A stretch of 41,188 nt of DNA from Pseudomonadota bacterium (GTDB taxonomy: Bacteria > Pseudomonadota > Gammaproteobacteria > Acidiferrobacterales > Acidiferrobacteraceae), in the NCBI GenBank assembly GCA_021841585.1, contig JAKBUS010000018.1:1-41188 (forward strand). Direction: 5' to 3'. Below are positions 1-30,864 of this stretch, one piece after another. Both the position numbers and the translations under genes were made by a program. The notes beneath the pieces are model-generated. The model saw only the letters and a list, made by a program, of their open reading frames with translations. It had not been told where the DNA came from and did no database searches. Position 1 is the first letter of the stretch, and every line of letters begins with the position of its first letter.

Positions 1-915
1 CCGATCTGGCACGGGCGTGAAAGCGGGGTCTGCCACGAAGCGGTTGCGGTCGGCAAGCGCTGCCTTTATGGCCTCGATGAGTAGGACGTAAAAGCGGGTA
101 TCGTCGCCGCGCGCCCGTGGGATATCGAAACGGTTCAAAAGATGCAGGATCTGCAGGGCCGTGACGCCCTGGGTGGGCGGTGGCAGGTTGAAGGCCTCTC
201 CGTCACGATAGGGGACCGCAAGCGGTGTCACATAAGCGGCGCGGGTCGCTTTGAGGTCGGTGTCGGTCACCGTGCTCCCGGCGGCGCGCAGGCCGGTGGC
301 TATGCGTGCGGCAAGCGGCCCTTCATAGAAGCTGCGCGGCCCATGTTCAGCAATGTGCGCAAGGGTCGCTGCGAGCGCTCCTTGCGTTTGCCGGCAACCG
401 GCCTCGCACTGTTCGCCGGGGCGATCAAAGATATCCTTGAAGCCCGGTTGGGGGTCGAGGATGTTGCGGTGGGTCTTGTACCAAAAGGCCTGGGATTGGC
501 TTACCGGATAGCCTTGTTCGGCGCGGGCGATGGCAGGCCCCAGGAGGGCGGGCCAATCGAGGGTCCCCGCCCAGGACTCTTGACTGACACGGTAGGCAAG
601 CCGCCAGCTGTCGACGGCGCCGGCGGTGGTGGATGCCGCCGCCGGGCCGCGCATGGCAAGCCCCGCGTCGGACGGCCGGGCGATTGCTGCCTGCCCTATG
701 CCGAGGATGCCAAGCGGCTCGCGTCCGTCCCGCGCGAGCAACCAGCAGGCGTCACCACCGAGGCCGGTCATGTGCGGGTAGACGACGCACAACATGGCCG
801 CTGCCGCCAATGCCGCTTCTATGGCATTTCCCCCGGCACGCAAGATGGCAAGGCCGGCGCGCGTGGCGTCGGGATGGGGGGTCGTGACGAGTGCGGTATG
901 CGACTGCGCTAGCAT
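1..915 (-). CDS. Gamma-glutamyltransferase-family Ntn hydrolase, possibly HpxW-like (partial, C-terminus cut by window edge)
   Basis: An uninterrupted minus-strand reading frame starts at an ATG (915-913) and runs off the left edge, giving 305 codons. The translation has the GGT large-subunit pattern: LRAGGNAIEAA near residue 25, the stretch MTGLGGDAWW near residue 50, and LPPPTQGVTALQ near residue 243. The autoprocessing Thr and the small subunit would lie outside the window. There is no signal peptide, unlike periplasmic GGT, so the protein is probably cytoplasmic. In the family, HpxW of Klebsiella is a GGT-like oxamate amidohydrolase in a purine-catabolism cluster. The neighbours here (guanine deaminase, biuret-hydrolase-like amidase) make an amide-releasing role more attractive than glutathione turnover, but that is inference. 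The start overlaps the end of the guanine deaminase gene by 7 bp, so the two are translationally coupled. Confidence 0.85.
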   Translation of the reverse strand, partial: MLAQSHTALVTTPHPDATRAGLAILRAGGNAIEAALAAAAMLCVVYPHMTGLGGDACWLLARDGREPLGILGIGQAAIARPSDAGLAMRGPAAASTTAGAVDSWRLAYRVSQESWAGTLDWPALLGPAIARAEQGYPVSQSQAFWYKTHRNILDPQPGFKDIFDRPGEQCEAGCRQTQGALAATLAHIAEHGPRSFYEGPLAARIATGLRAAGSTVTDTDLKATRAAYVTPLAVPYRDGEAFNLPPPTQGVTALQILHLLNRFDIPRARGDDTRFYVLLIEAIKAALADRNRFVADPAFTPVPDR

Positions 916-2168
916 GGCAGGGCCGGCTCCGATGGCGTCCCCCGACTGATTGTGGAAACCCGGTGCCCGGCGATCCAGGTTCCAAGTGGACGCCGCTCGA
1001 GTTCGCCGGGCGATCCCTCCAGGAGTTCCTCGAACCATGCCTGTGGTGACTGCGCGCGCGCGCCGCGCGGCATGAGTACGAAGTCCGCGCGCCGGCCCGG
1101 ATCCAGGCAGCCGGCCACGCCGCCGCGCCCCATCGCGCGCGCGCCCGCAAGGGTCGCGCGAAACAGGGCCTCTTCGGGATCCACGCGGACGCCGGCTGCC
1201 TCGTGCTGGCGCCGGAATCTCTGCATGACATGGAGCATGCTATGGCTCGGGCCCGCGCCCACGTCGGACGCGAGCGCGAACGGGACCTGCTGGCGCCGCG
1301 CGCATTCGAGATCGAAGCGCCCGCTGTCCAGGGTCTCATTGCTCGATGGGCAATGCGCAATCCAGCAACCGCGCGCCTTGAGGCAATGCCATTCTCGCGG
1401 GCTCAAATGGAGGCAATGACCGAGCACGGTGCGGGGCCCGAGGAGGCCGGCCTCATCATAGACGTCGGTGTAATCGAGGGCCCGCGGGAATAACCGCGCC
1501 ACCTCCCGTACCTCGGCCATTGATTCGGCAAGATGGGTTTGCACGGCAAGGCCTTGATCGCGTGCAAAGGCCCCTAGGGCCGCGAGGTCCTCGGAGGTGC
1601 AGTTCAGGGCAAAGCGCGGCGTAATCGCGTAATGCGCGCGGCCAATGGCCTCCGCCAAGAAGGCAAGATCAGCCGGGGGTTTCACGCTTGCCGCGATCAG
1701 ATCGGCCGGGGCGTTTGTCGTCATGATCACGTTTCCCGTGATCCAGTCGCCACGCCTTGCGGCATGCGCGATACGCGCCGCCATGGGATGGGGGCTTGAA
1801 TAACTCATGCCCATCACGGTGCCGGCGGTCAGGCAATCGGCAAAAAACTCCTGCGCCCGCCGTTGTGCGAGCGCGCTATCGGCATAGCGCGCCTCTTCCG
1901 GCCAGATGTGGGTCGCAAGCCACGGCAAAAGGGCCTCCGCATAGCGCCCGCGGACGGCGTGTTGCACCCAATGAATATGAATGTCGGCAAAGCCTGGCAG
2001 GATCACCCCATCGAGCTTTACTGGGTCCCAGGGGTAATTCTTGATCACGTCATCGAAGCGTCCCAGGGCGCGGACCACGCCATCCTCGACGAGCAGGCCG
2101 CCGTCGTCGAAAAACTGCCACGATTGAGCGTCGACGGGATTCAAGAGGGCCGCCCGAAACAAGGTCAT
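909..2168 (-). CDS. guaD: Guanine deaminase (amidohydrolase superfamily)
   Basis: The 419-residue protein fits cytosolic guanine deaminase, which hydrolyses guanine to xanthine and ammonia. Visible motifs in order are the metal-binding HIH in [23 protein letters not shown], the histidine of [23 protein letters not shown], and [12 protein letters not shown] carrying the metal-ligand Asp. The length is close to E. coli GuaD. The start overlaps the stop of the upstream amidase gene by 4 bp (ATGA at 2165-2168), so it belongs to one leftward operon. Its product xanthine would be the textbook substrate for the molybdenum hydroxylase encoded divergently. A related aminohydrolase acting on another aminated heterocycle cannot be excluded from sequence alone. 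Confidence 0.85.
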
Positions 2169-2866
2169 GAGGCGATGATGCCGGCAAGCGCCGCGCGAAG
2201 GTTTGCCGAGGGCGCGGTGGCCCCGAATATCCCCCCCTGCATGCTGATCATGCTGATCGCCGCCTCATAGTGGCGTTTCTCAGTCGCGCCGGTGCAGTCG
2301 GTCAAAAGTAGGCACTCGAAGCCCCGGTCGTTGGCCTCGCGCATGGTGGTATGCACGCACACGTCGGTCGTGATCCCGGTGAGAATGAGATGAGTCACGC
2401 CCATCGTCCGTAGTATGTGTTCGAGATCGGTGGCATAAAAGCTGCCCTTGCCCGGTTTATCGATGATGATCTCGCCGGCCGTTGGGCGCAACTCCGGTAC
2501 GATCTCCCACCCCGGTTCCCCGCGCACCAGGATGCGTCCGCAAGGCCCGGGCTCGCCTATTCCAGGGCATACCTTGCGGCTGCGCCAGCCCTTGTTGGCC
2601 GGCAAATCCACGAGTTCCGGCCTGTGCCCCTCGCGGGTATGAATGACGCGCATTCCTGGAACCTTGCGCACGACCTTCAAGGTCTCTTGGATCGGCGCAA
2701 TCGCCGCGCGCGTCAGGCTGATGTCATAGCCCATGGCGTCCACGTAGCCGCCCTCGCCACAGAAGTCGGTCTGCATGTCGATGACGAGAAACGCGGTCTT
2801 CGCGGCCTGTGCCAGTTTGTCGAATGGCCAGCAATACGGCGCTGCTTCGACATGAAATCCGGTCAT
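2165..2866 (-). CDS. Isochorismatase-family amidohydrolase, biuret hydrolase-like
   Basis: The 233-residue cysteine hydrolase belongs to the isochorismatase superfamily. The Asp-Lys-Cys triad is visible as D30 (VIDMQTDF), K137 (DKPGKGSF) and C170 ([18 protein letters not shown]), with the usual cis-peptide region just before the Cys. From memory of the family, the overall text ([34 protein letters not shown]) resembles bacterial biuret amidohydrolases, which convert biuret to allophanate and ammonia; triuret hydrolases and RutB-type ureidoacrylate hydrolases are close relatives. Biuret is the product of cyanuric acid ring opening, and a ring-opening amidohydrolase lies in the divergent operon. 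The gene sits between the cupin gene and guaD, with 9 bp and a 4-bp overlap. Exact substrate is not provable from sequence. Confidence 0.8.
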
Positions 2867-2875
2867 TGTGTCCTC

Positions 2876-3313
2876 CTATTCGTTTTCGTTTTGGTCGCTG
2901 TCGACGAACGCCACGGGCGCCCGCCATTGGATCAATACCACGCAGCCCTCGCGGCTGTGCACGCTGTGACGGCTTCCGGCCGGGTTGAATACATAAGAGC
3001 CGGCCTTGTAATCGCCGTGCTCGTCACTTTGGCTGCCCTGCAACACAAAGATATGCTCGTCTCCGGTGTGGACGTGCAGCGGCACGCTGGCGCCCGGGGT
3101 ATAAGAAAGGAGCGCGATGCAAAGAGAGCTCCCCTCGAAAAGGTCAAGGATGCGCACGCCGGGCCTCAGTACCCGCCATTGCGGGCTGTCCTGGGCCAGG
3201 TCCGATGGTGTCAGGACATAGCGCGAGACCTCGCTTGCAAACCGCTGGTCGCTATCGTCCGGGTTCGACCCCTTGGCCTTGGGTCGTGCCGGCGCGTTCT
3301 CGTCTGGTCTCAT
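2876..3313 (-). CDS. Cupin-domain protein (ChrR-like cupin fold)
   Basis: The 145-residue soluble protein has one cupin domain in its C-terminal two thirds. The metal-binding motif appears as PLHVHTGDEHIFVLQG near residues 78-93, with the second motif GSYVFNPAGSRHSVHS near residues 105-120. The N-terminal 30 residues are polar and low in complexity. Such stand-alone cupins act as dioxygenases, isomerases, lyases or ligand sensors, and none of these can be assigned here. It is the first gene of the leftward operon, about 40 nt downstream of the predicted start of the sigma-54 promoter at 3362-3377. A purine or ureide intermediate as ligand is a guess from context. Confidence 0.75.
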   Translation of the reverse strand: MRPDENAPARPKAKGSNPDDSDQRFASEVSRYVLTPSDLAQDSPQWRVLRPGVRILDLFEGSSLCIALLSYTPGASVPLHVHTGDEHIFVLQGSQSDEHGDYKAGSYVFNPAGSRHSVHSREGCVVLIQWRAPVAFVDSDQNENE

Positions 3314-3658: not shown

Positions 3659-5929
3659 ATGTACACATCGATGCATAACGACTCCAGGTTTGGGACGACG
3701 CCCTTGAAAGATGCGCCTTTACGCAAAGATGGTATGGAAAAGGTGCGCGGCACAGCGCGTTATGTCGCCGACATCACTTACCCAGGCATGCTTCATGCCG
3801 TGACCGCACGTACGCGCCTGCCCGGCGGCACCATCGCCTCAATCACCTTCGATGATCATGTGCCCTGGAGCGAATATGTGGTGGTGACCGCTCGGGACAT
3901 ACCCGGGATCAACGCGGTCAAGATGATCGAGACAGACCAGCCGGTGCTGGTGGAAACGCATTACCGCCATGCCGGCGAACCGGTGGTCTTGATCGCGCAC
4001 CCAGATCCGCAGGCCTTGGCGGACGCCTTGGCGGCCGTCCATATAGATGAGCGCCCCTATGCCAAGCCGCCGGTCTTTGCCATAGAGGAGGCCTTGCGCG
4101 CGGATACCCGGCGGATCGCCGCCGACAATGTCTACCGCGACTACCTCATGGAAAAGGGTTCCGTGATGGATGCCGAAAAGGAATCCTGCCAGGTGTTCGA
4201 GGCGGAATATCACACCGGGGCGCAGGAACATCTCTATATCGAACCGCAGGGAATGATGGCGCGCATGGAAGGCGGCATTCTGACCGTTGAGGGGTCGCTG
4301 CAATGCCCGTATTACGTCCACGCAGCGCTCATGTACGCGACGGGGCTGCCGGAGGAGCGGGTTCGCGTCCTGCAGTGCGCCACCGGCGGCGCATTCGGGG
4401 GCAAGGAGGAGTACCCATCGCACATCGCCTGTCACGCCGCGCTTGTGACCATGAAGGCCGGCGGGCGGCCCGTGGCGCTCATCTATGGGCGCGGCGAGGA
4501 CATGGCGGTGACGCCTAAGCGCCATCCCTCGCGTTCGCGGGTGCGTCTCGGGGCCAGCCGCGACGGACGCCTGCGCTTCATCGACATCGACTTTGTAATC
4601 GACGGGGGCGCCTATCTCACTTTGAGCCCGGTGGTTTTGTCGCGTGGCGTCATTCATGCCGCCGGGCCTTATCGCTGCGACAATGTGCGCGTGCGCGCTC
4701 GCGCGGTAGCCACCAACCACCCGCCATTCGGGGCCTTTCGTGGCTTCGGGGCGCCGCAGAGCATCTTCGCGCTGGAGGCGGCCCTTGATGAGTTGGCGCG
4801 CATGCTCGAGATGGAGCCGGACGTGCTGCGCCGGCGCAACGTCCTCGCCCCCGGCGATATCTCGCCGGCCGGACAGAGGATCGAGGGGCCGCTCGATATG
4901 CAAAGGGTCATTGGTCAGGCCCTGGAGGCCTGCGACTATCACGCCAAGGTCGAGGCCTACCGGCAGTGGAACGCGCAAAAAGGCGCGATCCGCAAGGGGA
5001 TAGGGCTTGCCACTTTCTATCATGGCGCGGGATTTACCGGCAACGGCGAGCTTGCCTTGCGCTCACGCGCCGGCCTGCGCGTCGGCGCAGATGGCCTCGT
5101 GGAGATCCTGACATCGACCACCGAGATGGGGCAGGGCATGCAGACCACGCTCTCCGGGATCGTTGCCGAGGCCCTGCGCATCCCCTATGAAGGGGTCGCG
5201 GTGGCGAGGCCCGATACGCGTGATGTACCTAACTCGGGTCCTACCGTGGCGTCAAGGACCTGCATGGTGGTAGGGGCCATACTCGCGCGCGCCGCAGATG
5301 ACCTCATTGCCCGCTTGCGCGCCGATGCCGCGCTGCCATCCGTATACGGCTATGGAGAGTTCCGCGACGCCTGCGCGCGGCTTCATGCCGCGGGTGGCGT
5401 CACCACAATAATCGCTGACTACCGCCATCCGGCGGGCAACGAATGGGATGAGTCGGTCTTTCAGGGGAGCCCCTACGCAAGCTTTGCCTGGGCCTGCTAT
5501 GTCGCCGAGGTCGAGGTCGACGCCGTGACCGGCGAGACGCGCATTGTCGATTTCACCGCCGTCCAGGAAGTCGGGCGGGTCGTGCATGCAACGGTGGCGG
5601 CGGGCCAGATAGAGGGGGGTGTGGTGCAGGGCATAGGCTACGCCTTGTTCGAGGATGTGCGTTTCGGGGCCGATGGGCAGATGGCCAATAATCGCATTAC
5701 GAACTACATCATCCCAACTAGCGCCGACATTCCGCCGATACGGGTTTTGTTCCTGGAATCCCGGCACGGCGCGGGTCCCGGTGGCGCCGCCGGGATTGGC
5801 GAGTTGCCGATGGACGGGCCGGCGCCGGCAATCATAAATGCCATAAATGCCGCGCTCGGCACCGAGATCCGCCATGTGCCGGCCATGCCGGAGCACATCC
5901 TGGCGGCTATGGACCGGAGGTCTGCATGA
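3659..5929 (+). CDS. Molybdenum hydroxylase large subunit (xanthine dehydrogenase family)
   Basis: Up to 756 residues form the Mo-pterin subunit of a three-subunit hydroxylase. Visible landmarks are EKVRGTARYVADI near residue 27, GGAFGGKEEYPSHIA, the arginine region PFGAFRGFGAPQS, TTEMGQGMQTT, and GELPMDGPAPAI containing the catalytic-type Glu (E715 from this start). Family members hydroxylate purines, uracil/thymine or other azaheterocycles. Size and order (Mo, FeS, FAD) do not discriminate between them. Start choice is uncertain: the ATG at 3659 has no ribosome-binding site and lies upstream of the predicted sigma-54 start point. ATG 3671 would be almost leaderless, and a TTG at 3704 preceded by GGGA would give the usual short N-terminus. 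The stop overlaps the next gene by 4 bp. Confidence 0.9.
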   Translation: MYTSMHNDSRFGTTPLKDAPLRKDGMEKVRGTARYVADITYPGMLHAVTARTRLPGGTIASITFDDHVPWSEYVVVTARDIPGINAVKMIETDQPVLVETHYRHAGEPVVLIAHPDPQALADALAAVHIDERPYAKPPVFAIEEALRADTRRIAADNVYRDYLMEKGSVMDAEKESCQVFEAEYHTGAQEHLYIEPQGMMARMEGGILTVEGSLQCPYYVHAALMYATGLPEERVRVLQCATGGAFGGKEEYPSHIACHAALVTMKAGGRPVALIYGRGEDMAVTPKRHPSRSRVRLGASRDGRLRFIDIDFVIDGGAYLTLSPVVLSRGVIHAAGPYRCDNVRVRARAVATNHPPFGAFRGFGAPQSIFALEAALDELARMLEMEPDVLRRRNVLAPGDISPAGQRIEGPLDMQRVIGQALEACDYHAKVEAYRQWNAQKGAIRKGIGLATFYHGAGFTGNGELALRSRAGLRVGADGLVEILTSTTEMGQGMQTTLSGIVAEALRIPYEGVAVARPDTRDVPNSGPTVASRTCMVVGAILARAADDLIARLRADAALPSVYGYGEFRDACARLHAAGGVTTIIADYRHPAGNEWDESVFQGSPYASFAWACYVAEVEVDAVTGETRIVDFTAVQEVGRVVHATVAAGQIEGGVVQGIGYALFEDVRFGADGQMANNRITNYIIPTSADIPPIRVLFLESRHGAGPGGAAGIGELPMDGPAPAIINAINAALGTEIRHVPAMPEHILAAMDRRSA
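3661..3676. promoter_or_regulatory. Shared motif at the +1 region, possible GntR operator (copy 1)
   Basis: The 16-nt text GTACACATCGATGCAT matches a second copy, GTATGCAAGGATGCAT at 11232-11247, at 12 of 16 positions (GTA-nn-CA-nn-GATGCAT). Both copies begin within 10 nt downstream of a sigma-54 -12 box, so each spans the expected transcription start. A bound repressor there would block initiation. The GntR/FCD regulator at 10375-11070 is the obvious candidate, but no binding evidence exists in the sequence itself. Confidence 0.3.
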
Positions 5930-6384
5930 CGATTCCATGCCGGTTTATCGTCAATGGATCGGCTGTTTCCGGAAGTTTTCCGCCGATGCGCCGCCTGCTC
6001 GATGTGTTGCGTGGCGAGTGTGGCCTGACCGCGACCAAGGAGGGCTGTGGGGAAGGCGAGTGCGGGTCGTGCGCGGTGCTGCTCGATGACACGCTCGTGA
6101 ATAGCTGTCTTGTCCCAATCGCCGATGTCAATGGCCGCGAGGTGACGACCCTCGAGGGCCTGCCCAAAGATGACCCCTTGTTCGCGGCATTTGCCGCTAC
6201 CGGCGGGACGCAGTGCGGCATCTGCACGCCGGGCATGATCATGGCCGCGCGCGCCTTGCTAAACGACTGCTTGCGCCCCGATCTTTCACAAACGCGTGAG
6301 GCGCTGTCGGGAAATCTGTGCCGGTGCACGGGCTACGGGGGGATCTATGCCGCCATTCGCACGGCCTCGGGGCAGGGGGAGTGA
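5926..6384 (+). CDS. Molybdenum hydroxylase [2Fe-2S] subunit
   Basis: The 152-residue iron-sulfur subunit carries two clusters. The N-terminal plant-type ferredoxin cluster uses C41, C46, C49 and C61 (GCGEGECGSC then SC). The second, all-helical cluster uses C97, C100, C132 and C134 (CGIC and CRC). All eight cysteines are present, so electron transfer from the Mo centre to FAD should be intact. The length is normal for XdhC/CoxS-type small subunits. It starts inside the stop codon of the large subunit (ATGA) and ends 1 nt before the FAD subunit start, so a single translation-coupled operon is evident. Confidence 0.93.
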   Translation: MTIPCRFIVNGSAVSGSFPPMRRLLDVLRGECGLTATKEGCGEGECGSCAVLLDDTLVNSCLVPIADVNGREVTTLEGLPKDDPLFAAFAATGGTQCGICTPGMIMAARALLNDCLRPDLSQTREALSGNLCRCTGYGGIYAAIRTASGQGE

Positions 6385-6385
6385 T

Positions 6386-7246
6386 ATGCGTTGGTACGCG
6401 CCACGGAAGCTGCATGAGGCATTGGCGCTGCTGACCGAGAGGCCGGATTTGATACCGATCGCCGGCGGGACCGACATCATGGTGGGGCGCGACCCGCGCG
6501 CCTGCGGTCACGATTATCTGAGCCTCGCCAACGTGGCCGCCCTGCGGGGCATTCGCGAGACGCCGGCGGGCGTGGCGATCGGCGCGCTTGCCACCATGAC
6601 CGAGATCGGGCGCCACCCCATCGTTTGCCGGGCACTACCCGCTTTGGCCGCCTCGGCGCGGGCTACTGGTGCGTTTGCTATCCAAAACCGCGCAACCCTC
6701 GGGGGCAATATCATGAATGCCTCACCGGCGGCCGATAACGCCCCGGTCCTGCTCGCCTACGGGGCGTCGGTGAGTCTCATGTCGGTTGCACGCCTACGGC
6801 ATGTCCCCTATGAGAACTTCCATAGCGGGTACAAGGTCACGGTACGGCGCCCAGAAGAAATCTTGGGGGAGATTTTTGTGCCGTACGCCCCATTAGGCGC
6901 GCGCCATTATTTTCGCAAGGTCGGCACAAGGCGTGCCCAGGCCATCAGCAAGGTCGGTCTCGCGGCCCTATTGGTCGGGCGCCCAGGAGCCTGGGAGCGC
7001 GTGCGTTTCGGTTTCTCGAGCGTGGCCGCGACCCCGATCCTTGCATGCGCGCTCGCTGCCACCATCACCGGCACCGCTCGTGGCCTGCCAGACGACGAGG
7101 GCCTGGCTGAAGCGCTGGGGCGTGATCTCGCGGCTCGCGACGATATCCGCTCGACCGCCGAGTATCGTCGGCGTATTGCCCTGAATCTGGTGCGCGAGGC
7201 CCTCGCGCCATGGAGACATCAAGGAGGTTGCGATGCAGGCCAGTAA
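6386..7246 (+). CDS. Molybdenum hydroxylase FAD-binding subunit
   Basis: The 286-residue protein is the FAD subunit of the same enzyme. The flavin-binding motifs are PIAGGTDIMVG near residues 24-34 and ATLGGNIMNASPAADNAP near residues 103-120, followed by a CO-dehydrogenase flavoprotein-type C-terminal domain. The ATG at 6386 was chosen because it follows a purine-rich GGGGGAG and sits immediately after the FeS-subunit stop; the open frame extends 90 nt further upstream inside the FeS gene. It overlaps the AllA-like gene by 14 bp. The NAD or other acceptor cannot be inferred. Confidence 0.92.
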   Translation: MRWYAPRKLHEALALLTERPDLIPIAGGTDIMVGRDPRACGHDYLSLANVAALRGIRETPAGVAIGALATMTEIGRHPIVCRALPALAASARATGAFAIQNRATLGGNIMNASPAADNAPVLLAYGASVSLMSVARLRHVPYENFHSGYKVTVRRPEEILGEIFVPYAPLGARHYFRKVGTRRAQAISKVGLAALLVGRPGAWERVRFGFSSVAATPILACALAATITGTARGLPDDEGLAEALGRDLAARDDIRSTAEYRRRIALNLVREALAPWRHQGGCDAGQ

Positions 7247-7805
7247 AGAAAGGGTAGTGTTCGATGTACCGCTCGTGGATGCCACCGCCGATAACATCAA
7301 GGACTATGGCGTCATGATAGGTGCCGAGGTCCACAGGCCGGGCCTTGCGATCCCGTTCTACGCAAGTGTCGAGGAGGGACAGAATCTGGAGTTCGCCTAT
7401 CACGGGCGCGCGGTCGTGCGCACCGCGCGCATCAGCAAACGGCCCTCGGATCTCGTATGGTTCGAGCGGCACCTGCGCATGACGCAGCTTTTCATAGGGC
7501 TCGGCGATCAGCCGTTCGTCATGGTGCTCGCCAAGCCCAATCACGAAGCCGGCCGGTGCGTGCCAGATTTTGCGGACATGGTGGCGTTTAGGCTGCCCGC
7601 GGGTCATGGAGTCATGATCCACAAGGGGACCTGGCACGACTTCCCGATGGCGATCGACAAGCCGGTAACGGTCTTTACCGCCAATTCCGAAGAGGTGGTG
7701 GCCGCATTGTGCGCGGTGCCGGGCCCCCAGGAGATCGATGATGGGGATGTGTGGAAGATTGATATCGCCGCCCGTACCGGATACATCCCCCGGGTCCCAT
7801 TCTGA
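7233..7805 (+). CDS. Ureidoglycolate lyase (AllA)-like protein
   Basis: The 190-residue protein resembles the AllA cupin-like family, which splits ureidoglycolate into glyoxylate and urea. The most telling block is VMIHKGTWHDFPM (H130, W134, H135), preceded by an ERHLRMTQLFIGLGDQPF block equivalent to the AllA region around ERHPLGTQAF. A strong AAGGAGG site precedes the ATG. The gene lies directly before a ring-opening amidohydrolase, with stop and start overlapping as TGATG. Known AllA acts at the end of allantoin breakdown, but no allantoinase, allantoicase or uricase is in view. An alternative, inferred from position, is that it cleaves a ureido acid made by the next enzyme, for instance ureidomalonate to malonate and urea. 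Confidence 0.75.
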   Translation: MQASKERVVFDVPLVDATADNIKDYGVMIGAEVHRPGLAIPFYASVEEGQNLEFAYHGRAVVRTARISKRPSDLVWFERHLRMTQLFIGLGDQPFVMVLAKPNHEAGRCVPDFADMVAFRLPAGHGVMIHKGTWHDFPMAIDKPVTVFTANSEEVVAALCAVPGPQEIDDGDVWKIDIAARTGYIPRVPF

Positions 7806-8881
7806 TGCGCGCCGATATCCATGCCTATGCGGCGGCGGCCCCCGACGATGTCGAGGGGCTTGCGCGGGATTTGCAAGACCGGCGTATCGCCGCGGCTGAC
7901 ATCATGGCCATCATCGGCAAGACGGAAGGCAACGGCGCGGGCAACGATTTCACGCGGGCGATGGCGACGGGCGCGTTCACGCGCTTATTGGCCGGGCATC
8001 TGGCGCTTCCGGAACCAGACGTCGAGCGGCGCGTCATGCTGTCGTTTTCAGGGGGCTGCGAGGGCGTCATAACGCCCCATTACCTGGTATGCACGAAAAC
8101 CGGGGCCGTGGCGCCGGGCACACCCGCGATGCGAAAAAGTCTGGCGCTTGCCACGAGCCGTACGCGACCGTTCGATCCCGAAGAGGTGGGAACCATGGTC
8201 ATGGTGCGCGAGACCGAGGCGGCCATGCGCAGGGCGATGTCGGAGTTGCGCGTGCCCCCGGACGATGTGCATCTCGTGCATGTGAAGGCGGCGCTGCCGG
8301 TGGTGACGCCCGGGGCCTTAAGCCCGGCGCGGGCTACCATGGCCCATGCGCGCTCGGCCTCGGCTTTGGGCGTGGCGGCCGCCCTCGGCGAGATCGACGG
8401 CAATACGCTGACCGATGACGCCATAGGTGCGCGCCTTGAACTCTACTCGCAAGTCGCCAATGTCTCGGCCAAGCCCGGCGTTTGCGTAAGCGAGATCTTG
8501 GTGTTCGCAAACTCACCGTTTTGGGACAGCCCATGCCGGATTCATCACACCGTTATGCGCGACGTCATCGATATGGAACCGGTGCGCGCGCTGTTGGCCA
8601 CGGCCGGCCTGTCCACGTGCGGGCAGCTTGCGCCCGATCAGACACGCCGTATCCGCGCCATATTCGCCAAATCCGATGCCGATCCCACCCATAGGATCCG
8701 TGGCCGCCGCCATACCATGTGGACCGATGAGGATTTCAGCGACATGCGCTATTCACGGTGCGTGGTGGGTGCCGTGCTGGCGGCCTTGACCGGAACCACG
8801 GCGGTTTATGTCTCCACGCGCGCCGAACACATGGGGCCGCCGGGAGGGGGGCCTGTGGCGGTGATCGTCGATGAAAGCTGA
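7805..8881 (+). CDS. Ring-opening amidohydrolase (cyanuric acid hydrolase / barbiturase family)
   Basis: The 358-residue protein belongs to the small, fold-unique AtzD/TrzD/barbiturase family, built from three similar units each supplying a Ser-Lys pair. Unit 1 shows IGKTEGNGAGNDFTR (K39) and FSGGCEGVITPH (S82). RTRPFDPEEVGTMVMV follows near residue 119. Unit 2 shows HVKAALPVVTPG (K161) and RSASALGVAAALGEI. Unit 3 shows RIRGRRHTM and VSTRAEHMGPPGGGP. As I recall the cyanuric acid hydrolases, the last motif reads SGGAEHQGP; here it is STRAEHMGP, which may point to barbiturase or another specificity. Such enzymes hydrolyse one amide bond of cyanuric acid (giving biuret after decarboxylation) or barbiturate (giving ureidomalonate). 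Co-transcription with a Mo hydroxylase favours a ring that is first oxidised. Confidence 0.87.
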   Translation: MRADIHAYAAAAPDDVEGLARDLQDRRIAAADIMAIIGKTEGNGAGNDFTRAMATGAFTRLLAGHLALPEPDVERRVMLSFSGGCEGVITPHYLVCTKTGAVAPGTPAMRKSLALATSRTRPFDPEEVGTMVMVRETEAAMRRAMSELRVPPDDVHLVHVKAALPVVTPGALSPARATMAHARSASALGVAAALGEIDGNTLTDDAIGARLELYSQVANVSAKPGVCVSEILVFANSPFWDSPCRIHHTVMRDVIDMEPVRALLATAGLSTCGQLAPDQTRRIRAIFAKSDADPTHRIRGRRHTMWTDEDFSDMRYSRCVVGAVLAALTGTTAVYVSTRAEHMGPPGGGPVAVIVDES

Positions 8882-9800
8882 TGCGGCCGCCTTGGTCGAG
8901 GTCGTTGTGACGCAGGTGGCGGGCTCGGCGCCGACTGCGGTCGGGGACTCCTTGTATCTCGCGGCGTCCGGTTGGCGGGGCTCGGTCGGGGGTGGCGCCA
9001 TCGAGGAGGCCCTGAAGGCGCGCGCCCTGGCATGCGGCGAACAGGGCATCGGCGCGGTCATGGAGTTTTCCCTCAATAGTGAACATGATCAATGCTGTGG
9101 AGGGCGTGTGGTGGCGATCATTTGCCCCGTGCCGCGTGCGGCAACGCCGTGGCTTCAGGAAAATGCGCCACGTCTCTACAACTGGGACCACCGGGGTCAG
9201 CCGCGCCTGCTGGGGGCCTGGTGGCGGGGCCGCTGGCATCCCGCCGGCGCCGACTGCAACCCGGAGCCGGCCGCGCATGAATGGCCGGCCGGTCTTCGCG
9301 TCGGGCCGGGCGGGACGTATTTTTTGAAGCGCGCAACAAAAAGTCACCCGTTATGGCTGTTTGGCGCAGGCCACGTCGGCGCCGCGATTGCGGCGTTCGC
9401 CTGTCATCTCGGATACGACGTCTCGGTGTTCGATACCCGCCCGGAGTGGAACGAGGCGGCGCGATTCCCAGTGGGGGTCACCCGTCACCTCGTGGCCATG
9501 CCGCCCGCCGAAGACACGTCTCCCCCGCCATCGGCGCTGGTCATGACCCATAGCCACGGTCTCGACTTCGCCATCGCCGCCGTACTCCTTGCGCGCCCCG
9601 TCGATTATCTGGGCGTGATCGGCAGCCGCACGAAGGCCGCGCTTTTTCGAAAGCGGCTCCGGGACCGTGGATTTGGTGAGCGGGAACTGGCCCGGTTGCA
9701 TATGCCGATGGGGCTTTCGGGTCTCGGCAAGAGGCCTCATGAGGTGGCGGTTGCCGTCCTCGCCGAACTCCTGCAAAGGCGCCAGGGGGGTATCCCATGA
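8871..9800 (+). CDS. xdhC: XdhC-family molybdenum hydroxylase maturation factor
   Basis: The 309-residue protein matches the XdhC/CoxI family, which binds molybdenum cofactor, promotes its sulfuration and inserts it into xanthine-dehydrogenase-type enzymes. The N-terminal XdhC domain has GSAPTAVGDSL and GSVGGGAIEEAL with the conserved QCCGG near residue 77. The C-terminal Rossmann domain has LFGAGHVGAAI near residues 163-173 and VIGSRTKAALFRKRL. It starts 11 bp inside the ring-opening amidohydrolase gene and overlaps the MocA-like gene by 4 bp. Its position confirms that the upstream hydroxylase needs a dedicated Moco chaperone. Confidence 0.9.
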   Translation: MKADAAALVEVVVTQVAGSAPTAVGDSLYLAASGWRGSVGGGAIEEALKARALACGEQGIGAVMEFSLNSEHDQCCGGRVVAIICPVPRAATPWLQENAPRLYNWDHRGQPRLLGAWWRGRWHPAGADCNPEPAAHEWPAGLRVGPGGTYFLKRATKSHPLWLFGAGHVGAAIAAFACHLGYDVSVFDTRPEWNEAARFPVGVTRHLVAMPPAEDTSPPPSALVMTHSHGLDFAIAAVLLARPVDYLGVIGSRTKAALFRKRLRDRGFGERELARLHMPMGLSGLGKRPHEVAVAVLAELLQRRQGGIP

Positions 9801-10387
9801 TGGCCTTGTTGCTGGCCGGTGGGCGCTCATCCCGGGCGCGCACCCACAAGGGCTGCCGGCGTGTCGAGGGCCGCCCATGGCTTTACCGTCAATGCCGTTT
9901 TTTGCGCTCGCAGGGTTTTGCGCAGGTGCGTGTCGTACTCGGATACTCGGCCATGGGCGCCGCGCGTTGCGTGCCGTCCGGCGTACGGAGGATCTGGAAC
10001 AGGAACAGGGCCGGCGGGCCTTTCGCGAGCCTGCGCGCGGGGCTGCGTGGCGCGCGCGGCCCGGTCCTCGTGGTCTTGGTAGACGCGTGGTTGCCTTCCC
10101 CGGCGACGATCTGCCGGCTTCGCCTGGGGCTGCGCGGGGCATACGCCGCCATTCCGGTCTGGCGCGGGCGGGGCGGGCATCCGGCATTGCTTTCGCATGA
10201 ACTCGCAGCCGCCATTGCCGGATCCGTGCATTCGCCTAAAGAGCGCCTCGATCACGTCCTTGCGTCGGCCGGCGCGCGTCGCATTGCCGTACAGGATCGT
10301 TCGGTACGGCGGAATATGAATCGGCGCAGGGATTGGTGGCTCTATCTGCGATGCCGCAAGCTAAGGAGGCCTCTATGGATGGGTTAG
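9797..10387 (+). CDS. MobA/MocA-like nucleotidyltransferase for molybdenum cofactor
   Basis: The 196-residue protein carries the NTP-transferase signature LLAGGRSSRARTHKG at its N-terminus, a PVLVVLVDAWLPS strand where related enzymes have a metal-binding Asp followed by P, and PVWRGRGGHPALLS further on. MocA enzymes attach CMP to molybdopterin to give the cytosine dinucleotide cofactor of many Mo hydroxylases. That fits the XdhC gene just upstream, which it overlaps by 4 bp. It is Arg-rich and somewhat diverged at the first motif, so CTP versus GTP specificity is uncertain. Its last 13 bp overlap the GntR gene. Confidence 0.75.
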   Translation: MMALLLAGGRSSRARTHKGCRRVEGRPWLYRQCRFLRSQGFAQVRVVLGYSAMGAARCVPSGVRRIWNRNRAGGPFASLRAGLRGARGPVLVVLVDAWLPSPATICRLRLGLRGAYAAIPVWRGRGGHPALLSHELAAAIAGSVHSPKERLDHVLASAGARRIAVQDRSVRRNMNRRRDWWLYLRCRKLRRPLWMG

Positions 10388-11070
10388 CACCGCGTGTCAG
10401 CGCGTCCGCTATTTATGAAAGCCTAAAAGAGATGATCTTGAGCTTCGAGATTTATCCCGGAAGCCGCATCACCGAGTCCGACCTAGCGACGTTTTTTGGG
10501 GTGAGCCGCACGCCGGTACGCGAGGCCCTGCAGCGCCTGGCCCAGGAAGGACAGGTCAGTATCCGCACCAAGCAGGGGTGCTTCGTGCGCCAGATCAATA
10601 TATCGGAGCTCGCACAGTTTTACCGGGTACGCACGGCAATCGAATGCCTGTCCCTTGATATTGCCGCGAAATCCATGGCCAAAGAGGCGTTGTGGGCGCT
10701 CGCGCGGGAGTGGGATCCCGCGCATGTCCTGCCCGGTGCTGCCGATTTGAGCCTCATGGTGCAAAAAGAGGAATCCTTCCACATGGCCCTCGCGCGCGGC
10801 GGCGGAAATCTTGCTCTAGCAACCTATTTAAACGATATCAACGAGCGCATACGGGTCATAAGGCGCCTGGATTTTACAGAAGGGTTCCGCACAGACAGGA
10901 CCTACGAGGAACACCATAGGATTGTATGTCTGCTGCTGGAAGGGGACCTGGCGGCCGCGAAGACGCTCATGACCGATCATATCCTGCAAAGCGAAAAGTT
11001 CGCGCGCAGCGTGACGCTAGAGCAGCTGGCCAAGACCGAAAACGCTACAGCCCGGTCCGCCATGCGCTAA
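10375..11070 (+). CDS. GntR-family (FadR/FCD subfamily) transcriptional regulator
   Basis: The 231-residue regulator has an N-terminal winged helix (AIYESLKEMILSFEIYPGSRI, SDLATFFGVSRTPVREAL, residues about 12-60) and a C-terminal helical FCD ligand domain with typical metal-site positions such as FHMALARG and EHHRIV. The start at 10375 was chosen over an upstream in-frame codon because AAGGAGG at 10363-10369 lies 5 nt before it. It is the last gene of the Mo hydroxylase operon, so it likely senses a pathway metabolite. Shared motifs at 3661-3676 and 11232-11247 are candidate binding sites. Confidence 0.9.
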   Translation: MDGLAPRVSASAIYESLKEMILSFEIYPGSRITESDLATFFGVSRTPVREALQRLAQEGQVSIRTKQGCFVRQINISELAQFYRVRTAIECLSLDIAAKSMAKEALWALAREWDPAHVLPGAADLSLMVQKEESFHMALARGGGNLALATYLNDINERIRVIRRLDFTEGFRTDRTYEEHHRIVCLLLEGDLAAAKTLMTDHILQSEKFARSVTLEQLAKTENATARSAMR

Positions 11071-11096: not shown

Positions 11097-11209
11097 ATCT
11101 GGCGCGCCATTCCCCATAGACGGGCCCCGTCTCGGCCCGCGCGGCGAGGCCATGGCGGCATAAGTGCTAAATTGCGCGGCTTTAGCGGCCAAAGCCGAGC
11201 AGCAGCGCC

Positions 11210-11225
11210 TGGCACGAAACATGCT
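11210..11225 (+). promoter_or_regulatory. Sigma-54 promoter for exbB-exbD-tonB-permease
   Basis: TGGCACGAAACATGCT has a perfect TGGCACG -24 box and GC at the required 10-base distance (11211-11212 and 11223-11224). It is almost the same text as the promoter at 3643-3658. Transcription would start near 11236, giving a leader of about 100 nt to the exbB ATG. The 264-bp gap 11071-11334 contains this promoter, the upstream dyad and the downstream motif, but no supported gene. Confidence 0.72.
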
Positions 11226-11231
11226 GTGGGT

Positions 11232-11247
11232 GTATGCAAGGATGCAT
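11232..11247. promoter_or_regulatory. Shared motif at the +1 region, possible GntR operator (copy 2)
   Basis: GTATGCAAGGATGCAT contains a perfect inverted repeat ATGCA-N4-TGCAT (11234-11247) and shares 12 of 16 positions with 3661-3676. It spans the expected transcription start of the exbB operon. An operator for the pathway-specific GntR protein is the simplest reading. A chance palindrome remains possible. Confidence 0.3.
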
Positions 11248-11334
11248 TCAAATCCACGGGCGCGAGGTGTGATCGCGCCGATTCGGCGAATGCACGACAT
11301 GATTCGTTCAGAAGTTTACGCAAAGGAGACGAAT

Positions 11335-12051
11335 ATGGTGGTCCTGCAATATATCGTTCATTTGGCGAATTATTCAGACGGCGTTCTGTATGTTTTGGCG
11401 CTGGTCATGATGCTGGAGATTGCGGTCATCATCGACCGGCTATGGTTTCTGCGGCGGGGCCTGAAAAAGGGCCAGGAGGTGATTCAGGACATCTCGCGGC
11501 GTGGCAGGATGCAGCGCGACGACTTAAAGGAGATCGTCGAGCGTTGCGCGGGACTTCCCGAGGCGCGCCTCGTGGAGGTGGCCCAGCGTTACTTCGGTCT
11601 CATTCACCATTATGGAAGCGCGCGCGGAGAGGCCTTCGCCAATCGTCTTGATGAGACCATATTTCTTATTACGCCGACACTCGACAAGAGGTTATGGGTC
11701 CTCGATACGATCGTGACATTGGCGCCCCTCCTGGGACTGTTCGGGACCATAATAGGGATGTTTCATGCCTTCTCAATATTGGCCTTGCCGGGCCACGCGC
11801 CGACCTCGGTAACCGCCGGGGTGGCCGATGCCTTGATTGCGACCGCCACGGGTCTTTTCATTGCCATGGTGGGACTTATAAGTTTCAACGCCTTCAACAA
11901 TGCCATAGAGAAGATCGTATACCAGCTCGAATCCTTGAAGATTTTATTGCTCAATCGCATGGATGGCGCGCCGGTGTGGCCGGAATCCGTATCGGTTACG
12001 CAGACGCAAGCGCAAAAAGGCCGGCCGGCGGATGGCCGGGTCATGATCTGA
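11335..12051 (+). CDS. exbB: ExbB-like energy transducer (MotA/TolQ/ExbB proton channel)
   Basis: The 238-residue inner-membrane protein has an N-terminal transmembrane helix (about residues 15-32), a cytoplasmic helical loop, and the paired TM region LDTIVTLAPLLGLFGTIIGMFHAF and LIATATGLFIAMVGLISFNAF that forms the ExbB pentamer channel. The ATG at 11335 was preferred to the 57-codon upstream extension because AAAGGAG (11322-11328) lies 6 nt before it and the first TM follows directly. ExbB with ExbD converts proton-motive force into movement of TonB. It heads an operon with exbD, tonB and an NCS1 permease. Confidence 0.9.
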   Translation: MVVLQYIVHLANYSDGVLYVLALVMMLEIAVIIDRLWFLRRGLKKGQEVIQDISRRGRMQRDDLKEIVERCAGLPEARLVEVAQRYFGLIHHYGSARGEAFANRLDETIFLITPTLDKRLWVLDTIVTLAPLLGLFGTIIGMFHAFSILALPGHAPTSVTAGVADALIATATGLFIAMVGLISFNAFNNAIEKIVYQLESLKILLLNRMDGAPVWPESVSVTQTQAQKGRPADGRVMI

Positions 12052-12063
12052 CGGGAGGACACC

Positions 12064-12465
12064 ATGACACCACGAATGGGTCGACGAAAGAAGGGCCGTG
12101 TGGAGATCATTCCCATGATCGACGTCATGCTGTTTTTGCTTGTATTCTTCATCATGATCACGATGCAGATGATCTCGGACCGTGGTCTGCACCTGAATCT
12201 GCCGGCATCAAGCCAGGCGCACACGTTGCCGCACCCGCATTTTGTCATCAACGTGAAGAGCCCGGGTACGGTGGTCGTTAATGACAAGCGTTATGATCTG
12301 GCGGCCTTGGTTAAGATGCTGCATGGGGACGGAGATCCGGCCAAGACTCAGGTGACGATCGCTGCCGACAAGAAGGTGCCATTCCAGCAATTCGTGCATG
12401 TCATGGATGCCTGCCGCAAGGCTGGCGTGAGCCAGATCGGCATCGCGACGGAGCCCAAGGCATGA
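12064..12465 (+). CDS. exbD: ExbD-like biopolymer transport protein
   Basis: The 133-residue protein has the ExbD layout: a basic cytoplasmic N-terminus (RMGRRKKGRVEIIP), one TM helix MIDVMLFLLVFFIMITM with the essential proton-carrying Asp (D20), and a periplasmic domain ending in VMDACRKAGVSQIGIAT. It lies 12 bp after exbB with a GGGAGG-type site. Length and motifs are normal. Confidence 0.92.
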   Translation: MTPRMGRRKKGRVEIIPMIDVMLFLLVFFIMITMQMISDRGLHLNLPASSQAHTLPHPHFVINVKSPGTVVVNDKRYDLAALVKMLHGDGDPAKTQVTIAADKKVPFQQFVHVMDACRKAGVSQIGIATEPKA

Positions 12466-12535: not shown

Positions 12536-13288
12536 ATGAGCGTTTTGGGGTGGTCCGGCGGGGCGCCGCGCGCAGGCGGCGATGACGAGGGCTCACGGGT
12601 CTTTGGATATGCGCTGGCGGCAGCCTTCGTGCTGGAGGTCGGGTTGGTCGCGCTCGCGGCCCTGTGGCCCCAGAGCGTACCGCGCACGGTGCGCCCAAGC
12701 TCGATTGCGGTGCAGATGGTGACGCTTCCGAGGCCCGTGCCGCCGCGCCCAAAGCCGCGGCCACGCCCCGTGGTCCCGCCACCCGTGGCCCATAAGATGC
12801 CGCCCAAGCCGATCGTGACCAAGGCCCCGGTGCATGAGGTGGTGCCGCCGCCGGTGAAGCCGAAGCTGATCCGAAAGACGCTACCCGTGGTGCCGCCGCA
12901 TAGGCCCCAGCCGGTGGCGCGGCCTCATAAGGCGGTGCCGGTAAAGCCCCGCAAGCCCGCGCCCGCGCCCAGTCCGTCGCCGCAGTTGATTGCCTCGCTC
13001 ATGTCGCGTTATGTGGGTCTCGTGCGGCCCATGATACAAGGTCACTTGCGCGTGCCGGCGATGCTAAAGGCCATGGGCCTTTCCGGCCACTCCACGATAG
13101 AATTTCGCTTGTCGCCGGGCGGGCGCCTGCTATGGGCCAAGGTGCTCGTGCCGAGCCGCATTCGCGCGGTGAACGGCGCCGCGCTCGCCGCCGTCGAGCG
13201 CGGCCACTATCCACCGTTCTTAAAGCGCATGCCCAAGCGGGACACGACCTTCGAGATCACCGTGCACATCAGCGGAGACGGTTCGTGA
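12536..13288 (+). CDS. tonB: TonB-family energy transducer
   Basis: The 250-residue protein has a short cytoplasmic N-terminus, one TM anchor (about residues 24-44), a long Pro/Lys/Arg linker spanning residues 62-145, and a C-terminal TonB domain (about 155-250) with IEFRLSPGGRLLWAKV and ALAAVERGHYPPF. The ATG at 12536 follows GGGGAGG (12524-12530). It would deliver energy to an outer-membrane receptor. No TonB-dependent receptor is in the window, so its partner is unknown. Its place before a nucleobase-type permease suggests a dedicated TonB for uptake of the pathway substrate. Confidence 0.88.
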   Translation: MSVLGWSGGAPRAGGDDEGSRVFGYALAAAFVLEVGLVALAALWPQSVPRTVRPSSIAVQMVTLPRPVPPRPKPRPRPVVPPPVAHKMPPKPIVTKAPVHEVVPPPVKPKLIRKTLPVVPPHRPQPVARPHKAVPVKPRKPAPAPSPSPQLIASLMSRYVGLVRPMIQGHLRVPAMLKAMGLSGHSTIEFRLSPGGRLLWAKVLVPSRIRAVNGAALAAVERGHYPPFLKRMPKRDTTFEITVHISGDGS

Positions 13289-13327: not shown

Positions 13328-14722
13328 ATGGCGCGCGAACGGCATTCTTTAGGGGCGACCGGCGGAGATCAGCGCCAGGGGTCCTCATGGGGGACGCTCT
13401 TCATATGGCTTGCCGCCACCATGACCGCCTCGACCATCCCCTTGGGCGGCATCATGGCGCAGGCCTTCCCGGGCGCGCCGTTCTTGTGGGTAATGCTGGC
13501 GGCATCCGCGTGTTTTCTGTTGGTTGGTATCGTGAGTATCCCGGGGTTCGTCTATGGCCTGCCGACCATGGTGGTGTCGGAGCATCTATTCGGCGCGCGC
13601 GTCAATCGCGCCATATCGGCGGCCAATTGGCTCTCCCAGGTGGGGTGGGAGAGTGTCGTTCTGGTAATCGTCATCTATATCGTGCGCAGCCTGTTGTTTC
13701 AAGGCGAGACCGTCTATCCGCTGAGCGCGACACTGACAGCGCTTGCGGTGTCCTTGCTGGCCAACTTCACGGTCCCGCTCCTCGGCTATCGCGCCATCGT
13801 CGCGGCCCAGAAGGCGGGCGCCGTGCTGCTCATGCTGTTTTCGATCGTCATTCTTTTTCATGTCCCTTTAAAGGCAAGCCTTTTCGGCACCGGCACGGCG
13901 ATGTCGGTAGGAACGCTGCGCGAGGCCCTGGGCGCTTTGTCCCTGGGGCTCATGGGCGGGGCGCTTTCCTGGACCATGTTCGCGTCCGACTATTCGCGAT
14001 TCACGCGCGGCGGCACGCCGCTTGCGCGTGTCGCGCTGGCCCCCGCGGCCGGGGGTTTTTTGGGGTCGTTTGTAATCCTCTTTGTATCCGTGGCCCTGTA
14101 CCAGGCGGGCGGGGTCACATTCGGCAGGGACGGAATCGCGTTTCCGCGCGGCATGTTTCATAATGAAATCCTGTACTATGGCTTTTGCCTGTTCGCGATC
14201 ATGGGATTGCTTGCCTCGAACTTCCTGAACGCGTTCAGCTCGGCTTTTAGTCTCGCCGTGACCCTGCGGCGTGATTTGAACCGGCGCCTCTCAACCTTCG
14301 TGGATGCCTCCATAGGGACGGCGATGGCGGTCTGGATTCTGTTTTATGCCCCGACCTTTCTGGATGTGTTCGAAATTTTTCTATCACTTCTCATCATCGT
14401 TGCCGCCCCTTGGACGGGCGTAGTCGTAGTGCAGATCCTGGGGGACCTTGTGGGTAAGGGACTCCCGCCGGACCCGGCATCGTGGTCCGAGGGTCGCCGG
14501 TCACGCGTGGGGGTCCTTGTGATCGCGGTCGCGGCGAGCGCGCTTTTTTCGAGCAATCCCCTGTGGGTCGGCTATGGCGCTCGCGCGCTCGGAGGGGTTG
14601 ACATTTCGCCACTCGTGGGCTTTGCCCTGGCGGCATTGCTTGCTGTCATCTCGCGTCGCGCGTGCGGGATACCGAGGCCGGGCGGTCTCGAGCGGGCCGG
14701 GGCCGACGCGCCGCCCTTGTAG
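13328..14722 (+). CDS. NCS1-family nucleobase permease (CodB-like)
   Basis: The 464-residue polytopic protein has about 12 predicted TM helices. Family landmarks are WLAATMTASTIPLGG in TM1 and the ALSWTMFASDYSRFTR block near residue 220, typical of cytosine/purine/allantoin NCS1 carriers. It follows tonB by 39 bp with an AAGGGGGG ribosome-binding site. It probably imports the heterocycle or ureide used by the upstream enzymes across the inner membrane, by proton or sodium symport. Whether the substrate is a purine, uracil, cytosine or another ring cannot be read from the sequence. Confidence 0.87.
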   Translation: MARERHSLGATGGDQRQGSSWGTLFIWLAATMTASTIPLGGIMAQAFPGAPFLWVMLAASACFLLVGIVSIPGFVYGLPTMVVSEHLFGARVNRAISAANWLSQVGWESVVLVIVIYIVRSLLFQGETVYPLSATLTALAVSLLANFTVPLLGYRAIVAAQKAGAVLLMLFSIVILFHVPLKASLFGTGTAMSVGTLREALGALSLGLMGGALSWTMFASDYSRFTRGGTPLARVALAPAAGGFLGSFVILFVSVALYQAGGVTFGRDGIAFPRGMFHNEILYYGFCLFAIMGLLASNFLNAFSSAFSLAVTLRRDLNRRLSTFVDASIGTAMAVWILFYAPTFLDVFEIFLSLLIIVAAPWTGVVVVQILGDLVGKGLPPDPASWSEGRRSRVGVLVIAVAASALFSSNPLWVGYGARALGGVDISPLVGFALAALLAVISRRACGIPRPGGLERAGADAPPL

Positions 14723-23856: not shown

Positions 23857-23871
23857 TCTCAAGGAGAAAGC

Positions 23872-25947
<2,076 letters not shown>

Positions 25948-25955
25948 GAGGAGTC

Positions 25956-30849: not shown

Positions 30850-30864
30850 CCATAAGGAGGCGCC

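Follow-up and report, generated by a model that had tools for sequence, protein, structure and literature searches.

Among the ring-opening hydrolases of the AtzD/barbiturase family, cyanuric acid hydrolases (CAH) and barbiturases serve as the reference points. CAH carry the motif SGGxExQGPxGGGP (PMC9118981) and, as a hallmark, two arginines at positions 194/195 and 324/325 (PMC9118981, PMC3758960), and Glu230 of the Azorhizobium enzyme has been called absolutely conserved (PMC4051656). Barbiturases (Group VI) have the signature N195, H321, K325, V345 and S/A346, in which 345 and 346 are specificity positions (PMC3758960). Peat et al. (2013) also set apart a Group IV from acidophiles that is unlike both AtzD and barbiturase and includes an enzyme of Acidithiobacillus caldus SM1 (PMC3758960). 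Sulfobacillus, A. ferrooxidans, A. ferrivorans and A. thiooxidans have Group IV genes as well. The literature searched, with subscription papers mostly outside it, yielded nothing on the gene neighbourhood or operon of Group IV, and the literature examined, including the relevant section of PMC3758960, no assay of a member. Here we analyse a locus in which such a gene is embedded in an operon with a molybdenum (Mo) hydroxylase and an AllA-like protein. It lies on the 41,188-nucleotide contig JAKBUS010000018.1 (assembly GCA_021841585.1, Acidiferrobacteraceae), referred to as the window, which is contig 23 of a 2.57-Mb genome that is 99.67% complete. Genes were identified by Pfam and NCBIfam profile searches, tblastn, PDB sequence comparison and synteny, some by eye.

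With a probability of roughly 0.4, we read the locus as a nitrogen-scavenging island of A. caldus and probably other acidophiles, in which a purine-linked, uricase-independent ring opening would be carried out by the Group IV enzyme. Its core consists of five genes:

3659..5929, + strand: Mo-cofactor subunit of a xanthine dehydrogenase-like hydroxylase (PF02738, PF20256)
5926..6384, + strand: 2Fe-2S subunit (PF01799, PF00111)
6386..7246, + strand: FAD subunit (PF00941, 142 bits)
7233..7805, + strand: AllA-like protein (PF04115, 46.5 bits, cut-off 23)
7805..8881, + strand: Group IV member of the AtzD/barbiturase (Toblerone-fold) ring-opening hydrolases (PF09663, 380.9 bits, cut-off 25; motif table and tree)

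Directly observed are the genes present, their synteny and family membership, the signature of Group IV and, in the examined loci, the constant pairing with AllA. The genes are tightly packed, with an ATGA at 5926, an overlap of 14 nt between the FAD subunit and AllA-like genes, a TGATG at 7803-7807 between the AllA-like and AtzD genes, 11 nt at 8871 and another ATGA at 9797; a single base lies between the 2Fe-2S and FAD genes. The longest open reading frame (ORF) of the FAD subunit starts at 6296, and an in-frame ATG at 6386 comes after the 2Fe-2S stop. A preliminary description of this DNA had placed the three-subunit Mo hydroxylase, the AllA-like gene and the AtzD/barbiturase-family gene in one overlapping operon, which Pfam matches, coordinates and overlaps confirm; the word "fused" holds for the operon, and the genes themselves are separate.

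The ring-opening enzyme belongs to the AtzD/barbiturase family and retains all three Ser-Lys dyads and the three Arg (K42, R54, S85, K162, R195, S233, K296, R325, S344), and with them both hallmark arginines at 194/195 and 324/325. It departs from the CAH motif at three positions, reading STRAEHMGPPGGGP; the alignment confirms the STRAEHMGP that the preliminary description had contrasted with SGGAEHQGP in solved cyanuric acid hydrolases. A phylogeny, proposed there as a check, covered 33 rows, namely the window enzyme with ten relatives and 22 other family members. The eleven form a single clade (support 100/100, stem 0.94), apart from the rows with the CAH and barbiturase sets, and have K235, P236, G/A237, D298, M/T321, R325, T345 and R346 in common. 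At the E237 position, where the Azorhizobium enzyme has its Glu230, all of them carry G or A. T345 or R346 occurs in none of the 22 other rows, 16 of which carry the full CAH set (R195, T321, R325, G345, G346); in the same residue table two actinobacterial rows show the barbiturase set N/H/K/V/A. All 11 clade rows, A. caldus SM-1 (ATC_RS14545) included, match the Group IV signature R195, M/T321, R325, T345, R346. Judged by these residues, the window enzyme matches Group IV and is not a barbiturase or a typical cyanuric acid hydrolase. Its active site is unlike that of AtzD, and the earlier suggestion that its specificity may differ is already in print, T345/R346 being the Group IV signature (PMC3758960).

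Two plainer assignments were considered for the enzyme. A cyanuric acid hydrolase was not accepted, given the motif mismatches, the loss of E237 and the presence of a separate gene with the CAH signature in genome G775 (G and L numbers are our handles for genomes and loci), and is retained only within a rival discussed below. A barbiturase is disfavoured by the residue signature (R/M/R/T/R against N195/H321/K325/V345/S or A346) and by the locus content. The second AtzD-family gene of G775 has the canonical SGGAEHQGP motif, and because this genome holds both, the Group IV enzyme is unlikely to be merely redundant with a canonical CAH. Relatives of Chloroflexi and Acetobacteraceae type (L004, L007, L010) fall outside Group IV in the tree. 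The Chloroflexi contig L004 has its AtzD-family gene (N195, A345) less than 1 kb from a Mo-hydroxylase subunit and near an amidase, a similar setting in another subgroup. On the plasmids L021 and L022, canonical-signature CAH genes stand beside fdrA, DUF1116, DUF2877 and carbamate kinase genes, which may form a further module acting on the ring-opened product.

Conservation of the operon, also proposed earlier as a check, was surveyed. An AllA-like gene is present in 11/11 Group IV loci and in 0/22 other AtzD-family loci (four of these, L054-L057, being covered by 3.1-4.1 kb only). It lies directly upstream of the Group IV gene in 10 of the 11 genomes and 1.3 kb upstream in G775. The Mo subunit recurs at 57-90% identity in nine of the ten Group IV relatives, which with the window makes 10/11 loci; in the other AtzD-family loci, matches of only 28-30% were seen in 3 of 22. 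AllA releases urea from ureidoglycolate. The window's AllA-like protein has the PF04115 domain of ureidoglycolate lyase (46.5 bits), and six NCBIfam ureidoglycolate-lyase models match it below their AllA cut-offs (best 37.3 bits against 260). A PDB sequence search with it gave no match at 0.001, and its AlphaFold model from a three-row alignment has a mean predicted local distance difference test score (pLDDT) of 34.8, too low for use. In L002 and L003 it is 91% identical and, like ExbD, among the best conserved proteins, with AtzD at 77% and 80%. More distant AllA relatives on Novosphingobium plasmids (30-33%, five records) were set aside; L018, the locus inspected, shows no AtzD or Mo hydroxylase match.

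Beyond this core, the window contains a divergent set at 25-3313, absent from the preliminary account, and further genes downstream, through which the + strand operon continues as far as the NCS1-type permease:

25..867, - strand: C-terminal ~60% of an HpxW-like gamma-glutamyltransferase (GGT)-family Ntn hydrolase, truncated at the contig start; complete in relatives
909..2168, - strand: guanine-deaminase-like amidohydrolase (NF006679, TIGR02967; PDB match 6ohb)
2165..2866, - strand: BiuH, biuret amidohydrolase, a cysteine hydrolase (NF050097, 398 bits, over cut-off 370)
2876..3313, - strand: cupin (PF12973, 70 bits)
8871..9800, + strand: XdhC, Mo-hydroxylase maturation factor (TIGR02964, 163.8 bits, over cut-off 161.6)
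9797..10387, + strand: MocA/MobA-like molybdopterin nucleotidyltransferase (PF12804, 88.3 bits)
10375..11070, + strand: GntR/FCD regulator (PF00392, PF07729; ORF from 10333, ATG 10375 after GGAGG)
11164..12051, + strand: ExbB-like proton channel (PF01618, 88.6 bits; synteny)
12064..12465, + strand: ExbD/TolR-like protein (TolR model 74.9 bits, below cut-off 127.3; synteny)
12536..13288, + strand: TonB-like protein (named from sequence by eye; synteny)
13328..14722, + strand: NCS1-type nucleobase permease (PF02133, 54.8 bits, cut-off 23.5; NCBIfam ncs1 49.8 bits, below cut-off 353; synteny)

Several of these genes, together with the Mo hydroxylase, hint at purines. The closest solved relatives of the guanine-deaminase-like protein are guanine deaminases (best match 6ohb). 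Taking E803, R881, F915, F1010, T1011 and E1262 of human xanthine oxidoreductase (XOR) as purine-site residues, in number and role, the Mo subunit keeps five of the six positions (E803, R881, F1010, T1011, E1262). Position 803, here Glu, is Phe in two aligned aldehyde oxidoreductases and Leu in nicotinate dehydrogenase. In G775 a homologue of the guanine-deaminase-like gene (58%) lies directly next to an 8-oxoguanine deaminase gene (655.7 bits, cut-off 532), and a NUP-family gene lies between the Mo and FeS genes (PF06516, 213.6 bits); an evident homologue, read by eye, has the same place in G685, where adenosine deaminase and Bmp transporter genes are found near the locus. Because G685 and G775 belong to one family, the purine hints span two families. 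The HpxW-like fragment is 38% identical to the GGT of A. caldus (tblastn, coverage 0.6), and full-length matches occur in L002, L003, L023, L025, L027 and L028. The GGT homologue of G008 (PF01019, 354.5 bits) has its best summed PDB match in the two chains of 5hft, which we take to be HpxW (170.1 + 149.5 bits), and its best single chain in 2nlz (201.3). YwrD/HpxW has been tied to xanthine degradation (PMC5270733).

This gene content bears directly on the chemistry that the preliminary description had proposed, in which a Mo enzyme converts uracil to barbiturate, the AtzD-family enzyme opens it to ureidomalonate and the AllA homologue splits this into malonate and urea. The same three kinds of enzyme are present, an NCS1-type permease is at hand, ureido acids resemble one another, and a urease is found in G000, G004 and G008. 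The barbiturase signature is absent, however, and the guanine-deaminase-like, BiuH, cupin, HpxW-like and AtzF genes go unexplained and point elsewhere, as do the purine genes; moreover, a urease was not found in the locus-bearing G011 (92% complete) and G013 (91% complete). Barbiturate is the least likely of the substrate readings, and we regard this route as improbable.

For a purine-linked route we infer all substrates, most of all the one acted on by the Group IV enzyme, and the order of all steps. Nucleobases would enter through a TonB-dependent receptor and the NCS1 permease, the guanine-deaminase-like enzyme would yield xanthine, and the xanthine-dehydrogenase-like Mo enzyme would hydroxylate it. 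The Group IV hydrolase could then open a cyclic imide derived from the hydroxylated product, and its AllA-like partner would act on the ring-opened ureido acid. The leftover ureide or biuret-type fragment may pass to BiuH, the cupin and an unlinked AtzF in the window's genus, and to AtzG-AtzE-HpxZ in A. caldus, G685 and G775, with the HpxW-like enzyme taking off the last amide. Three points favour a purine-derived imide: genes of purine type recur in two families; the enzyme differs from CAH at 345, 346 and at 235-237, next to the catalytic Ser233; and G775 has a canonical CAH-signature gene as well. A wider claim is more tentative, namely that this is a further kind of purine-ring cleavage. 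Here, once guanine deaminase and xanthine dehydrogenase (XDH) have acted, the Group IV enzyme and the AllA homologue would hydrolytically open a pyrimidine ring derived from urate or xanthine, with no uricase, xanthinase or yanthine step, and the ureide would go to interchangeable BiuH or AtzGE modules.

The searches for classical enzymes agree with such a route. Uricase, allantoinase and allantoicase were not recognised among the listed ORFs of the window, as the preliminary description had noted. Across the genomes searched, uricase (PF01014) was found in 0/5 genomes, OHCU decarboxylase (PF09349) in 0/9, and allantoinase (TIGR03178) over its cut-off in 0/9, with weaker sub-cut-off matches in all nine (allantoicase lay outside the genome-wide search).

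A number of observations weigh against the purine-linked route. The genome-wide uricase negative does not extend to HpxO, PuuD or allantoicase, for which no search was made, and urate could be oxidised by another enzyme. In the PDB the Mo subunit matches an aldehyde oxidoreductase best, at 257.4 bits compared with 227.8 for XOR; it has Ala in place of Phe915, and all NCBIfam XDH models that it matched stay under their cut-offs (best pucD, 448.9 against 783.65). The guanine-deaminase-like protein is likewise under both of its cut-offs (NF006679, 330 against 351; TIGR02967, 299.8 against 375.4), and relatives in its family deaminate ammelide. No guanine deaminase match occurs in the 29-kb stretch of A. 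caldus, and no Mo hydroxylase or purine gene was recognised in 20 kb around the AllA-AtzD pair of G154. The A. caldus Group IV enzyme passes the NCBI CAH model NF052395 (372.3 against a cut-off of 360), and the window enzyme stays under this equivalog cut-off with 347.3 bits; because the A. caldus homologue passes, the model alone cannot separate Group IV from CAH. BiuH retains its biuret pocket and AtzF co-occurs with the locus, both of which fit a triazine better. Finally, we know of no purine hydrolysis that yields biuret, and of no chemistry that joins the purine-like upstream genes to the biuret- or carboxybiuret-like downstream genes without a further step.

The downstream genes deserve a closer look in this respect. 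The window's BiuH is 62% identical to a BiuH-type gene of Rhizobium leguminosarum WSM1325. The biuret pocket comprises D36, F41, Y47, K142/K145, I170, T171, V174, C175, Q215 and V218, with Gln215 binding the distal amide of biuret (PMC5806882). In alignments, with positions counted manually, all of these are kept except V218, which is Ile. The cupin is 60% identical over 82 aa to an R. leguminosarum cupin beside a second cysteine hydrolase in the Rhizobium atzD cluster, and as a guess it could be a carboxybiuret decarboxylase, or TrtB-like. An unlinked AtzF (allophanate hydrolase) is found over cut-off in 7/7 locus-bearing genomes and in 2/11 without the locus (Fisher p = 0.0023), or 3/11 if a split, just sub-cut-off match in G014 is counted (p = 0.0040); within the genus the ratio is 7/7 against 1/7 (p = 0.0047). 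Because the genomes are related, these co-occurrences are not independent events. By eye, no urea-carboxylase or guanidine gene stands beside AtzF on G000:C118. A. caldus instead has AtzG, AtzE (51% to AtzE of pADP-1) and HpxZ/AtzH (68%). AtzE and HpxZ genes are also present in G685 and G775, with AtzG-like frames by eye, and G685 has a cysteine hydrolase of the second type, 66% identical to that of R. leguminosarum, which we label TrtA-like by analogy with the latter's place in its cluster.

The main rival is an s-triazine route. The Mo enzyme would hydroxylate a carbon of the triazine ring, turning for instance 5-azauracil into cyanurate, an amino group would be removed by the guanine-deaminase-like enzyme, the Group IV enzyme would form 1-carboxybiuret, and cupin, BiuH and AtzF or AtzGE-AtzH would release ammonia and CO2. 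In its favour are the BiuH match over cut-off with the pocket kept, AtzF over cut-off in every locus-bearing genome (7/7), the second-type cysteine hydrolase of G685 and the A. caldus gene order D-(xdhC)-G-E-H, which matches atzDGEHF of pADP-1 with the AtzE and AtzH/HpxZ identities given above. The catalytic Ser, Lys and three Arg of CAH are kept too, and the A. caldus enzyme passes the CAH cut-off. Yet the CAH motif fails at three positions in the window enzyme, E237 is lost in 11/11 rows, G775 already has a canonical CAH-signature gene and, over the 71% of its genome covered, shows no AtzF-like match exceeding 35% identity, and the purine genes are left unexplained. Because of the biuret evidence we keep this rival at about one chance in four.

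In a third view, the Group IV enzyme would open a small imide such as parabanate or alloxan in a purine- or hydantoin-type route to oxalurate, which HpxXYZ-like or BiuH-like enzymes and the HpxW-like enzyme would turn into oxamate and oxalate. HpxX/Y/Z-like genes and GGT do occur together in A. caldus, GGT is kept in the window's genus, and the larger, charged K235, T345 and R346 could suit a smaller or anionic ring. To our knowledge, however, parabanate formation by a Mo hydroxylase has not been described, the AtzF co-occurrence would be incidental, the G685 stretches contain no GGT and the GGT of G775 is unlinked; Gln215 of BiuH, which binds the distal amide of biuret (PMC5806882), is kept as well. 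We consider this route unlikely.

As to distribution, an AtzD-family gene is present in 7/14 genomes of the window's genus. The layout of TonB receptor, GGT, guanine deaminase, BiuH, cupin, Mo hydroxylase, AllA and AtzD recurs in G008, G004, G013 and G012, where the contig ends in AtzD; L002 and L003 show it with a partial TonB receptor. Outside the genus, the AllA-AtzD pair was found on two A. caldus plasmids and in G685, G775 and G154, in the last of these alone within 20 kb. The AllA profile matched 4/369 class-level genomes and the AtzD profile 14/398 phylum-level genomes, G000 included in both. On the A. caldus plasmids (L017, L084) the operon is flanked by insertion sequence (IS) elements; in strain MTH-04 one directly precedes an AllA-like gene that is annotated as shorter, and a second lies between two pieces of the TonB receptor, which suggests mobility and decay. 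A scan of viral contigs gave one 32-residue match.

The rest of the window gives some indication of the host. With soxB at 38233-40014 (819.4 bits) and soxA at 40201-41037 (198.4 bits), both over cut-off, it is probably a thiosulfate oxidiser. It is probably also an acidophile, going only by the relationship of its locus with A. caldus and with the hosts known for Group IV enzymes. Two tandem kdpABC sets occupy 21946-26549 and 27035-31461 (kdpA 697.8 and 650.4 bits, kdpB 989.3 and 1025.7), with one kdpC over cut-off and the second, at 30865-31461, recognised by eye. Next comes a KdpD-like protein that scores best with a non-kinase sensor model (369.4 bits, below cut-off 550), and then separate kinase and sigma54-type regulator genes, read by eye.

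What is new here is the AllA pairing, the Mo hydroxylase and the BiuH or AtzGE context of Group IV, and its members in the window's genus, G685, G775 and G154. An orphan group known by sequence since 2013 thereby gains a constant partner and a consistent neighbourhood, so that its substrate can be tested directly. Should the purine reading prove right, it would add an extra uricase-independent ring-opening route and could explain how acidophiles use bases released from nucleic acids in acid.

How does the locus compare with described systems? It shares with the published Group IV the signature R195, M/T321, R325, T345, R346 and a clade that includes the A. caldus SM1 plasmid gene; the section on that group gives neither function nor gene neighbourhood (PMC3758960). 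The Rhodococcus oxidative pyrimidine pathway, like the window, combines a Mo hydroxylase, there a Mo-type uracil dehydrogenase, with an AtzD-family ring-opener. That pathway has barbiturase and ureidomalonase steps (PMC3758960), whereas the window enzyme is without the barbiturase signature and has purine- and biuret-type genes around it instead. The atzDGEHF genes of Pseudomonas sp. ADP share the order D, G, E, H with A. caldus, where XdhC is inserted; the A. caldus stretch differs in lacking an annotated AtzF, in its additional Mo hydroxylase, AllA-like and GGT genes and in a Group IV enzyme that replaces the canonical AtzD. Along the same lines, the R. leguminosarum cluster resembles the window in its BiuH-type gene, related cupin, AtzD-family enzyme and GntR regulator, but its stretch has a canonical CAH, its own second cysteine hydrolase and a Bmp-type ABC transporter, and no Mo hydroxylase, AllA-like or guanine deaminase gene. 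With the known purine routes, namely uricase/allantoin/Hpx, xanthinase and the reductive yanthine route (PMC12507026), the locus has in common the XDH-type Mo enzyme, the guanine-deaminase-like and HpxW-like proteins and, in A. caldus, G685 and G775, HpxZ. It differs from them in that the genomes searched yielded neither uricase nor OHCU decarboxylase nor, over cut-off, allantoinase, and in that a Toblerone-fold hydrolase takes the place of the known ring-openers.

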